NCBI GenBank assembly: GCA_013360875.1
Contig: JABWAU010000011.1
Location: 1 to 52,031, forward strand
Origin: Anaerolineales bacterium
Lineage (GTDB): Bacteria; Chloroflexota; Anaerolineae; Anaerolineales; Villigracilaceae
DNA: 52,031 nucleotides
Reading direction: 5' to 3'
The translations under genes and the position numbers were made by a program. Within the stretch, counting starts at the first letter, position 1; every line of letters begins with the position of its first letter. Below the pieces are notes generated by a model. The model was not told the DNA's origin and ran no database searches. It worked only from the letters and a program-made list of their open reading frames with translations. Below, piece after piece: positions 43,118-48,131 of the stretch.

Positions 43118-45379
43118 CTACTTCCCTTCGCGGCTCATCACGTCCATCACTGCCACCGACGCGATCTGCACGATGGTATTCACGTCGTCGCCTGTTTGCA
43201 ACACGTGGACCGGCGCGCCCATACCGAGCAGGATCGGTCCAATCGCCTTGGCATTGCCGAGACGAGCCAGCAGTTTATAAGCGATGTTCGCGGATTCGAG
43301 CGATGGGAAGACCAGCACATTCGCGTCCTTCACACTGCTGAACGGATAGCGGTTTTCGATGATGTCCGCGACCACGGCCGTATCCGCCTGCATCTCGCCG
43401 TCCACGAGCAGGTCCGGGCGGCGGGCTTTGGTCAATTCGACCGCGCGCCGCACCTTGTCCGAGAGGGGATGCGGGGTCGAGCCAAAGTTCGAGAAGGAGA
43501 GGAACGCCACGCGCGGGTCGAGTTCCAACTTCTTTGCATAGTCCGCGGCGAGGCAGGCGATATCCGCCAGATCTTCCGCGGTCGGGTCAATGTTGACGGT
43601 CGCATCGGTGAACAGGTACACCCGGTCATCCACGATCATGATGTATACGCCCGCGGCGCGCGCTACGCCCGGCGCGGTGTGATGGATCCGCAGCGCGGGG
43701 CGGATGACATCGGGATAATCGTACGTCAGCCCCGAGACAAAAGCGTCGGCATCGCCCATCTTGACCATCATCGAACCGAGAATGTTGGCTTGTCGCACGC
43801 GCTTGCGCGCGACGGCAAGCGTCACTCCCTTGCGCCTGCGCAGTTCGAAATAGGCTTGAGCGTATGCCTCGTGTTTTTCGAAATCATAAGGGTCAAGCAC
43901 CGTCGGACTCCAGGAAAGTCCCAGATCCTCGATGTGTTTCTGGATCACCTGCGGGCGTCCGAGCAAAATGGGGGTGGCGATGCCCTCCTCTTTGATCTGG
44001 TATGCGGCGCGGACGATCTTCGTCTCCTCGCCTTCGGCAAACGCCACGCGTTTCTTTCCGCCCGAGGTGCGCGCCTTGTTCTGGAAGAAATACCTCACCT
44101 GTTCCCCCTTGCCCTGACGGAAGGCGAGTTGCTCTCGGTATTCATCAATGTCAACGGTCTTGCGCGCAACGCCGGTCTTCATCGCCATTTCAGCCACGGC
44201 GGGCGCCTCCCACAGCAGGACGCGCGGATCAAGCGGGGTCGGAATAATGTAATCACGCCCAAACTTGATCGGTTCTCCGCCATAAGCGCGGATGACCGAA
44301 TCCGGCACATCCTCCTTTGCCAGCGCGGCGAGCGCCTTGGAAGCCGCGAACTTCATATCCTCGTTGATGGCGCTGGCGCGCACATCCAGCGCGCCGCGGA
44401 AGATGAACGGGAAACCCAACACGTTGTTGACCTGATTCGGATAATCGGAACGCCCCGTGGCGATGATGACATCCTTGCGCGTCTCCTTCGCCAGTTCGGG
44501 CTTGATCTCCGGGTCGGGATTCGCCATGGCAAATATGATCGGGTCAGGCGCCATGGACTTGACCATCTCCGGGGTCATCACATTGGCGACGGACAAGCCA
44601 TAGAACACGTCCGCACCGCGCACCGCGTCTGCAAGGGTGCGGGCATCGGTATCCAATACAAAACGTTGCTTGTATTTGTTCAGGTCTGTCCTGCCGCTAT
44701 GCACAACGCCCTTGCTGTCACACAGCATGATATTCTCACGCTTCACCCCCCAGCGGATCGCCAGTTCCGCGCACGAAATCGCCGAAGCGCCCGCGCCCGA
44801 GATCACAATCCGAATGTCTTCGTGTTTCTTGCCGACGATCTTCAGGGCATTTGCCAAAGCCGCCGAGGAGATGATCGCCGTCCCGTGCTGATCATCGTGG
44901 AAGACGGGGATATCCAGCATCTTCTTCAATTCTTCCTCGATGTAAAAACATTCGGGGGCTTTGATGTCCTCGAGGTTGATCCCGCCAAAGGTCGGTGAGA
45001 TCGCCGCTACCACCCTGATGATCTCGTCCGGGTCGCGGGAATTCACCTCGATGTCGAACACGTCAATATCCGCAAATTTCTTGAACAGCACCCCCTTGCC
45101 CTCCATCACGGGCTTGCTTGCCAGCGCACCGCGGTCGCCGAGCCCCAGGATCGCCGTGCCGTTCGAGACCACAGCCACGAGATTGCCCTTGGACGTGTAC
45201 TCATACGCGTCCTGCGGGTTCTTCTCGATCTCCAAAACCGGCTCCGCCACGCCCGGCGAATATGCCAGGCTCAGGTCGCGCTGGGTGTCCATGGGCTTGG
45301 TCGGCACGATCGCCACCTTGCCCGGCTTGCCCTTCAAACGATGATATTCGAGTGCGTCTTCGCGCGTAAACTTTGCCAT
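43118..45379 (-). CDS. maeB: NADP-dependent malic enzyme with phosphotransacetylase-like domain
   Basis: The 753-residue protein begins [13 protein letters not shown]. The malic enzyme part (about 1-430) has S-P-G-V-A-E-P, the catalytic K in [11 protein letters not shown], the metal site H-D-D-Q-H-G-T-A, and G-A-G-A-S-A for NADP. The remainder resembles phosphate acetyltransferase, as in MaeB, and probably acts as a regulatory domain. It converts malate to pyruvate and CO2 with NADP+. The ATG at 45379 has GGAGG upstream; the frame is open to 45445. Confidence 0.94.
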
Positions 45380-45523
45380 ACTGCCTCCATTGGTGTAAAA
45401 ATCCCTTGCATTATTCCACGACTTCAGGGTTTCACCCAGTTCCATTTGTCACGATTTTATGTATATAACCCGCCCGCCAAAAAATGCTACGAAAATTTCA
45501 GGTTCCAAATCTTAAAAAACATG

Positions 45524-45529
45524 TATAAT
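45524..45529 (+). promoter_or_regulatory. Possible -10 box for the structured region
   Basis: TATAAT preceded by TG at 45522-45523 would start a plus-strand RNA near 45536. The -35 candidate (TTCCAA at 45503) has only a 15-base spacer, so this is uncertain. Confidence 0.35.
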
Positions 45530-45535
45530 CAGAAA

Positions 45536-45880
45536 AATCCGAAAGGATACGAACTCGCTTACCTCCACCGCCCCCGCGGTCCTGGCTGTACTGGATTCTG
45601 GATATGAGAGCAAGAATCTCCCCCGGTTTGGGAGTTAATTTGTGAAGTCGAATTAGGAACATCTTGAAACAGCATCGGACTTCCACCCCCCTTAACCTGT
45701 TCACAAGGCGCGCTCCGGTCGTCTGCCTTGTGATTTGATCTACACCCGAACACGCTTCGCGCGTGACCTGGGGCCTGCTCAACCTACCCAGACATTTTCC
45801 ATCACCCTGCTGACGCACGTCGCTGTGCGGCAGCCTTCCGCAGCCGAGGAACCGTTGGACGGTCCTTCGGCTGTGCGCGT
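45536..45880 (+). ncRNA. Unidentified, strongly structured noncoding region
   Basis: The 570-bp gap between maeB and recX contains about 340 bases with many nested complementary pairs. They are GATTCT/AGAATC (45594/45613), GTGAAGTC/GACTTCCAC (45642/45678), TCACAAGGC/GCCTTGTGA (45701/45725, perfect 9 bp), CACGC/GCGTG (45751/45761), and TGCGG/CCGCA (45826/45838). A 15-position stem from CAGCCGAGGAACCGT to ACGGTCCTTCGGCTG (45841-45873) has one mismatch. No convincing protein frame covers it. I found no RNase P, tmRNA, SRP or 6S signature. The strand is not certain; the plus strand is chosen because of the TATAAT. Confidence 0.4.
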
Positions 45881-45898
45881 TTAATCTCATTGCGTAAT

Positions 45899-45936
45899 GT
45901 GCGCTCTCTTGCGCACAACGCAGCGTTGGAGAACGC
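45899..45936. repeat. Hairpin repeat copy 4
   Basis: GTGCGC/GCGCAC and GCGTT/AACGC hairpins, followed by CTGCTACAC, resemble the element at 16682-16736. It lies just before recX. Confidence 0.45.
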
Positions 45937-45954
45937 CTGCTACACAATTTGACA

Positions 45955-46608
45955 ATGAAAAAGATCACCGCCATCGAAGCGCAAAAAAAGAACCCCAATC
46001 GGGTGAACGTTTACCTCGATGGGGAATTCGCCTTCGGGCTGGAACGCATCACCGCCGCGTGGCTGAGGGTGGGCCAGGAATTGGACGAAAAGAAGATCGG
46101 ACAGTTGCAGGCTGAGGACGCGCGTGAACGGGCGCTCCAGCAGGCGTTGCTCTTTTTGAGTTACCGCGCCCGCTCCGAATCCGAAATCCGCAGGAATCTC
46201 CAAAAACACGAGATTCCCAAAGACGTGATCGAGGAGACGATTGAACGCCTGCGCAGGGACGGGCTTGCGAACGACGACCAATTCGCCCGCGCCTGGGTCG
46301 AAAACAGGAGCGCCTTCCGCCCGCGCAGCCGCCGCCTGATGGCGCTGGAACTTCGCCAGAAGGGACTCGACGACGAGGCGGCGAAGTCCGCGCTCGAAGG
46401 CGTGGACGATGAAGCGCTCGCTTACGAAGCCGCCCAAAAACGGGCAACCCGATTCAAAGGTCTGGAGTGGAGCGAGTTCAGAACAAAACTTTCCGGGTTC
46501 CTCGCCCGACGCGGTTTTTCCTATTCGGTGATCGCACGTGTGGTCAGCCGGGTGTGGAATGAATCGCACAACGAGGAACGACATTTTGAAGAAGAGGACA
46601 CAACATGA
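45955..46608 (+). CDS. recX: RecX regulatory protein
   Basis: The 217-residue protein has the three RecX helical repeats: A-R-E-R-A-L-Q-Q-A-L-L-F-L-S-Y-R-A-R-S-E, then I-E-R-L-R-R-D-G-L-A-N-D-D-Q-F-A-R-A-W and R-R-L-M-A-L-E-L-R-Q-K-G. RecX binds RecA filaments and controls recombination. A TTG at 45949 is an alternative start, and no clear ribosome site precedes either. Its stop overlaps the rny start (ATGA), which indicates coupled translation. Confidence 0.88.
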   Translation: MKKITAIEAQKKNPNRVNVYLDGEFAFGLERITAAWLRVGQELDEKKIGQLQAEDARERALQQALLFLSYRARSESEIRRNLQKHEIPKDVIEETIERLRRDGLANDDQFARAWVENRSAFRPRSRRLMALELRQKGLDDEAAKSALEGVDDEALAYEAAQKRATRFKGLEWSEFRTKLSGFLARRGFSYSVIARVVSRVWNESHNEERHFEEEDTT

Positions 46609-48131
46609 ACCCGATATTGATTTTTGTAGATGTGATCGTCCTGTTCGTGGGTGTGATCGCCGGGTACTTCTTACACAGGTATCAGACGGAGCAAAGGGCA
46701 AAACAGCAGCAGGACAAGGCGGACACCATCCTGAAGGGCGCCAACGAACAGGCGCGCCTGATCGAAAGCCAGGCGCGTGACAACGCCGTAAAGATCATCC
46801 AGGCGGCGGAGGCGGAGATCAAAGAACGCCGCATCGAACTCAACAAGGAATCGGACCGTCTCGACAAACGCCGCTCTGAACTCGACAACCGCGCCGACCG
46901 GCTCGAACAACGCGAACAGACGATCAACAAACGCCAGTCGCAGGTGGACCGGCGCGGCAATGAAATTGACAAATTGTACGAGGAACAGGTCAAGAGACTC
47001 GAACAGATCGCCCAAATGACCCAGGAGGACGCGAAGAAGGAACTCTTCGCGGCGGTGGAGAAGGAGGCGCGCAGCGACATGGCACGCATCATGCGCCAGA
47101 TCGAAGCCGAGGCGCGCGAGGAAGGCGAAAAGCGCGCCCGCAAACTGATCGCCGACGCCATCCAGCGCGTCGCCTCCGAACACGTGGCGGAAGTGACCCG
47201 CGCCGTGGTCACGCTGCCCAGCGAGGAAATGAAGGGTCGCATCGTGGGGCGCAACGGTCGCAATATCAAAGCCTTCGAGCAAGCCGCGGGCGTGGACGTG
47301 ATCGTGGACGATACCCCGGACTCTGTGACCATTTCCTGCTTCGACTCGGTTCGCCGTGAGATCGGTCGCCGCGCCCTCGAAAGGCTGATCCTCGACGGAC
47401 GCATCCATCCCGCGCATATCGAGAAGGTCGTGCAGGATGAAACAAAGGCGGTCGAGAAGATCATCAACGAGGCGGGCGAGCAAGCCGCGTTCGACGCCAA
47501 TATCTCAGGCTTGCATCCCGAAGTTTTGCGCATGATGGGGCGACTCAAATTCCGCACGTCCTACGGGCAGAACCAACTCGCCCACGCGGTGGAAGTCGCC
47601 AAACTGGCTGGCATCCTTGCCGCGGAGATCGGCGCGAACGTGGAACTTTCCAAGCAGGGCGGTTTCCTGCACGACATCGGCAAAGCCATGGATCACAACC
47701 AGGAAGGCACGCACGCCATGCTCGGCGCGGAGTTTTGCAAACGCTACGGCGTGAACCCCAAGGTCGTCAATGCCATTGCTTCGCATCACCACGAAGTGGA
47801 ACAGGAATCCATCGAAGCGATCATTGCCGAGGCGGCGGATGCCATCTCCGGCGCGCGTCCCGGCGCCCGCCGCGAGGATCTCGAGGCGTACATCAAACGC
47901 ATCCGCACGCTCGAGGAACTCTCCACATCCTTCGAAGGCGTGGAACAAGCCTTTGCCATCCAGGCGGGACGCGAGGTGCGCGTCATTGTCAAGCCTGAAA
48001 AGATAGACGACCTGACCTCCGCCCGCCTGGCGCGAGACATCGCCAAGAAAATCGAAGAGACCATGCAATATCCCGGTCAAATCAAGGTGACGGTGATCCG
48101 CGAGACGCGGTCAACGGAATATGCGAAGTAA
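46605..48131 (+). CDS. rny: Ribonuclease Y
   Basis: The 508-residue enzyme has an N-terminal membrane helix (about 3-22), a long charged coiled coil (about 25-190), a KH domain (G-R-I-V-G-R-N-G-R-N-I, about 207-217), and an HD domain with F-L-H-D-I-G-K (about 351-357). RNase Y starts mRNA decay by endonucleolytic cleavage at the membrane. It is directly coupled to recX and ends at a good terminator. Confidence 0.96.
   Translation: MNPILIFVDVIVLFVGVIAGYFLHRYQTEQRAKQQQDKADTILKGANEQARLIESQARDNAVKIIQAAEAEIKERRIELNKESDRLDKRRSELDNRADRLEQREQTINKRQSQVDRRGNEIDKLYEEQVKRLEQIAQMTQEDAKKELFAAVEKEARSDMARIMRQIEAEAREEGEKRARKLIADAIQRVASEHVAEVTRAVVTLPSEEMKGRIVGRNGRNIKAFEQAAGVDVIVDDTPDSVTISCFDSVRREIGRRALERLILDGRIHPAHIEKVVQDETKAVEKIINEAGEQAAFDANISGLHPEVLRMMGRLKFRTSYGQNQLAHAVEVAKLAGILAAEIGANVELSKQGGFLHDIGKAMDHNQEGTHAMLGAEFCKRYGVNPKVVNAIASHHHEVEQESIEAIIAEAADAISGARPGARREDLEAYIKRIRTLEELSTSFEGVEQAFAIQAGREVRVIVKPEKIDDLTSARLARDIAKKIEETMQYPGQIKVTVIRETRSTEYAK

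Follow-up and report, generated by a model that had tools for sequence, protein, structure and literature searches.

What is the highly structured stretch of some 340 bases that separates a malic-enzyme-like gene from recX in this Anaerolineales genome, and does it act on the genes that follow it? Within the window, by which we mean the whole 52,031-nucleotide stretch of contig JABWAU010000011.1 that was analysed, the gap lies among the following genes:

43118-45445, minus strand: divergent malic-enzyme-like gene (maeB), on the other side of the gap
45955-46608, plus strand: recX, a RecX homologue and the first gene 3' of the leader
46605-48131, plus strand: rny (RNase Y), the second gene 3' of the leader, adjoining recX in relatives

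RecX is a modulator of RecA, and RNase Y is a major RNA-decay enzyme. A first-pass annotation had described the gap as structured, non-coding and preceded by TATAAT, and had offered a new noncoding RNA, an RNA-intron relic or a long leader controlling recX-rny as explanations. The description was borne out, with the 9-bp perfect stem located at 45701-45709/45725-45733, a 15-position stem of 87% complementarity at 45841-45855/45859-45873 and TATAAT at 45524-45529. The open reading frames of the gap were all unconvincing, and many insertions and deletions among homologues were not multiples of three, so the gap is not coding. A leader peptide from a short reading frame (ATG near 45603) was also considered and is unlikely, because that frame is not kept in relatives. 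Single-sequence folding energy was mildly unusual on both strands (z of -2.5 on the plus strand and -2.8 on the minus strand), and stems on their own therefore prove little. The strong evidence is instead comparative and drawn from sequence, in the form of conserved position, conserved sequence blocks and coevolving long-range pairs, and it places the functional element at approximately 45536 to 45885.

A covariance search against Rfam, proposed in the first-pass annotation as a check, returned no match for the window region among 4227 families, either at the gathering threshold or at E<=10; group I and group II intron models were among those without a match at E<=10. The same 4227 families gave no match in 16 relatives apart from one sub-threshold hit, on the opposite strand of one locus (L088), and neither the T-box model nor the riboswitch families of Rfam matched the window region or these relatives. 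Identity with 6S RNA, RNase P RNA or tmRNA was rejected, as confident copies of all three sit elsewhere in this genome, on different contigs. Separately, the genome (G000) shows one more RNase P RNA-like match besides the full copy on contig C40: a partial one near a contig edge (L035; contig C102, 103-310; 42.9 bits, E 7.6e-12), perhaps from contamination or from an additional partial copy. Within the searchable RNA-discovery literature, no leader of recX or rny was described.

The search for homologous intergenic regions and covarying pairs, also suggested at the outset, was more productive. A DNA search recovered the region from 17 of 17 genus-mates, as well as from some of the family's other genera, and in all 17 the homologue lay directly before recX-rny, one contig ending before recX; wherever the contig was long enough, rny came after recX. 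A covariance model built on the 5' core, which reaches only part of the family, matched 28 of 100 family genomes with one match per genome, and all new family loci that it found precede recX-rny. More distant leaders were reached via recX. With recX from 28 further genomes, comparable leaders comprising TATAAT, a 5' element and a hairpin before recX were found in most family genera, even where the covariance model matched nothing, and of the 27 further genera sampled via recX the majority had such a leader before recX-rny. Equivalent leaders occur across the family and in a large part of the class Anaerolineae, and the other neighbour, maeB, varies between loci while recX-rny stays. Where relatives of this recX are named, they come from Anaerolineales/Anaerolineae genomes, and the source is accordingly placed in that group. 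Three matches (L021, L023 and a second match in G025) were rejected as copies of the RNA, being a dispersed repeat or short similarities. In two loci, L083 (G043) and L135 (G137), the recX match reads through one internal TAG, for which sequencing error, a pseudogene or recoding are candidates.

Internal blocks of the leader were strongly conserved within the genus, whereas between genera the middle diverged fast and the switch strands were kept. Because of this divergence, most helices were lost when 33 family sequences were aligned and folded automatically with MAFFT and RNAalifold, and for distant members the evidence for pairing therefore comes from duplex tests in which partners were swapped. 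From the genus alignments and these tests, the leader can be divided into the following elements:

45524-45529, plus strand: TATAAT, the -10 box of the leader promoter, aligned in 21 of 21 homologues
45537-45548, plus strand: P0, a 5' hairpin (AUCC-GAAA-GGAU) present in many homologues and lost or changed in some
45567-45580, plus strand: P1 hairpin (ACCGC/GCGGU), a consensus pairing in alignment folds, found in nearly all genera read
45576-45589, plus strand: antiterminator strand GCGGUCCUGGCUGU, complement of the terminator 5' arm, with which it coevolves
45597-45601, plus strand: P2 5' strand (UCUGG), pairing with 45788-45792 in the RNAalifold consensus
45608-45612, plus strand: P3 5' strand (GAGCA), pairing with 45776-45780 in the RNAalifold consensus
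45618-45634, plus strand: P5 hairpin (CUCCC/GGGAG), nearly invariant in the genus
45644-45683, plus strand: P6 stem, GAAGUC (45644-45649) with GACUUC (45678-45683), its pairing conserved in alignment folds
45701-45733, plus strand: P7 stem, the 9-bp perfect stem noted above, confirmed by a stem check
45751-45765, plus strand: P9 hairpin (CACGC/GCGUG), CCCGC/GCGGG in relatives
45776-45792, plus strand: P3 3' strand (UGCUC, 45776-45780) and P2 3' strand (CCAGA, 45788-45792), from the RNAalifold consensus and the swap test
45840-45885, plus strand: terminator-like hairpin and tail CGCGUUUAAU, 5' arm 45840-45854, 3' arm approximately 45859-45874, -25.3 kcal/mol

Transcription probably starts near 45536. 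In many relatives TTAACA lies about 17 nt upstream of TATAAT, which itself stands 265-373 nt upstream of the end of the final hairpin in most family loci. In the genus alignments, the long-range stem P2/P3 encloses P5, P6, P7, P8 and P9; the least certain helices are P4 and P8, which were assigned by visual inspection of relatives. Several of these helices are replaced rather than lost elsewhere: P3 by, for example, UACGCCUG/CAGGCGUA in other genera (L077), P5 by UGCCC/GGGCA-like pairs in some other genera (e.g. L090), and the 9-bp form of P7, which is restricted to close relatives, by CGUGAC/GUCACG in many or CGCCGG/CCGGCG.

The pairing between the two ends of the leader carries most of the argument for a switch. 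No site in the window leader (L001) complemented the 5' arm of the terminator better than the antiterminator strand, which lies approximately 250 nt from this partner (-22.1 kcal/mol, with none of 100 shuffles as good), and the best complementary site fell at the same place in most loci. In permutation tests, which neither model phylogeny nor remove relatedness, changes being shared by clades, duplexes between own partners were stronger than between swapped partners in 26 leaders from 25 genera, genus g3 being represented twice (-19.5 vs -17.3 kcal/mol, an average gain of 2.2 kcal/mol; 0 of 50,000 permutations), and likewise in 20 loci outside the family, drawn from further families and orders, whose arm sequences differ considerably (-20.5 vs -17.9; 0 of 50,000). 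A hand-curated 10-bp core had 284 of 309 cells paired against 266 expected (0 of 20,000 permutations), and the P2/P3 flanks also favoured their own partners (-16.5 vs -14.0; 1 of 20,000 permutations as good). Automatic detection of the terminator chose the wrong hairpin in approximately 12 loci, and arms were instead anchored on a motif in the 26-leader test and picked by eye in the 20 loci outside the family. Compensated arm variants included AGCCGAGGCC, AGCCGUGGCC, AGCCGUAACC, AGCCGCAGCC and AUAGCUGCGGC; because these sequences are so varied, shared ancestry is unlikely to be the sole cause of the signal. In some distant loci (L089, L129 and L130), no convincing antiterminator was found.

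Predicted folding agreed with two mutually exclusive states. When leaders were folded only up to the terminator 5' arm, the antiterminator formed in 51 of 53, compared with 17% when the upstream bodies were shuffled, and on addition of the 3' arm most leaders switched to the terminator. Approximately one third kept the antiterminator in the full-length fold, so the balance varies between leaders; near-balanced alternative folds are what attenuators show. As in an attenuator, the element is a 5' leader before the genes it would control in all loci with enough contig, and its terminator hairpin shares one arm with a mutually exclusive antiterminator helix. What is shown computationally is a conserved position, a pair of complementary strands that are mutually exclusive and coevolve, and a predicted switch between the two states.

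Taken together, these results make it quite probable that the element acts in cis as a structured 5' leader RNA and regulates recX-rny through transcription attenuation, and of the explanations first offered the long leader is the one well supported, through its fixed position before recX-rny and the coevolution of antiterminator and terminator. In the proposed mechanism, transcription would start near 45536, and the strand at 45576-45589 can base-pair with 45840-45854, the terminator hairpin's 5' arm, while a long rod of P2 and P3 would close the multi-branched domain and set both switch strands side by side. With the domain folded and the antiterminator formed, RNA polymerase would read into recX-rny. 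P1 would compete with antitermination, because the antiterminator strand begins with the 3' arm of P1; with that strand held in P1, the terminator would form and transcription would stop just before recX. The hairpin presumably terminates transcription in the cell, and the folded domain should favour readthrough, because P2 stacks next to the antiterminator.

The sequence between hairpin and start codon bears on whether control is transcriptional. The tail after the hairpin is only moderately U-rich (GUGUGUUUUAA type), and in most close relatives no more than approximately 20 nt separate the end of the hairpin from the recX start codon. No obvious Shine-Dalgarno sequence precedes recX in the window or its close relatives, so the hairpin might act on translation, and a reading in which the hairpin and the long-range pairing alternately hide and free the recX start codon draws on the genus, where the hairpin mostly ends 3-19 nt before an ATG that lacks such a sequence. 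We consider this quite improbable. Several other families have a U-rich stretch after the hairpin, then a Shine-Dalgarno-like sequence and then the start codon, and the Shine-Dalgarno-like purines found between hairpin and start codon in several distant loci (e.g. L126 and L135) fit transcriptional rather than translational control; in the window itself, approximately 70 nt, including a dispersed repeat, separate hairpin and ATG. This repeat (45889-45946, GTGCGCTCTCTTGCGCAC...GTTGGAGAACGCCTGCTAC type) has many copies in its own and related genomes, with three in tandem in G006.

That the RNA is free-standing and acts in trans, with its own promoter and terminator and with recX-rny merely downstream and reached by low-level readthrough, is unlikely, even though the conserved promoter and terminator, the single copy per genome and the strong conservation of internal blocks within the genus would all suit such an RNA, and E. 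coli recX, which receives approximately 10% of transcription by terminator readthrough according to PMC3542578 (citing Pages 2003), supplies a precedent. The element was never found apart from recX-rny though its upstream neighbour changes, its 3' end is a partner in two exclusive helices, as is typical of attenuators, and its middle loses conservation between genera while the switch strands persist. Of the suggested new noncoding RNA, therefore, the part that stands is a structured RNA absent from Rfam, and the part that falls is its independence, as it looks cis-regulatory. A structure arising by chance in GC-rich intergenic DNA, or the remains of a mobile RNA, could accommodate folding z-scores of only about -2.5 and is otherwise contradicted by the family-wide conservation, covariation and coevolution, leaving it barely credible; the intron relic first suggested likewise fails on the lack of an Rfam intron match and on a promoter-to-terminator architecture conserved across genera.

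Under the preferred reading of a cis-acting attenuator, feedback by RNase Y or RecX is our leading guess for the signal, held tentatively, and a metabolite or ion is ranked next, as a doubtful candidate; feedback by an operon product is preferred over a widely used metabolite because there is a single copy per genome. More speculatively, the leaders may form a new, large riboswitch-like RNA class ancestral to the class Anaerolineae, whose folded domain would directly sense a signal linked to DNA repair or RNA decay, such as a nucleotide second messenger, a product of RNA decay or one of the two proteins RNase Y and RecX, and jointly set the levels of RecX and RNase Y. The predicted fold does contain a multi-branched domain that could serve as an aptamer, and it matches no Rfam riboswitch. 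As a candidate regulatory RNA, the leader is conserved in a class that has been little studied and is largely uncultivated, and it stands before an operon that couples a RecA modulator to a major RNA-decay enzyme; if the proposal is true, these two are under direct RNA-level control, by a well-defined orphan switch for which a ligand or protein partner can be sought.

Autoregulation of RNases through 5' UTRs occurs with RNase Y in Bacillus subtilis and RNase E in E. coli, and here too an mRNA-decay enzyme lies in the operon and a 5' leader could report its activity. RNase Y of B. subtilis limits its own synthesis by cleaving its own mRNA (PMC10303841), and the abstract of that paper describes no terminator switch for it. 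As in E. coli, where the terminator before recX belongs to recA (PMC3542578, citing Pages 2003), recX immediately follows a terminator, which presumably holds its expression down; here, in contrast, that terminator is part of a dedicated, apparently switchable leader. Neither precedent uses this design. Compared with transcription-attenuating riboswitches and antiterminator leaders, the recX-rny element has no known aptamer among the 4227 Rfam families and carries its antiterminator strand at the far 5' end, while sharing with them an arm common to antiterminator and terminator, a folded domain in between and a position ahead of the operon it would control.
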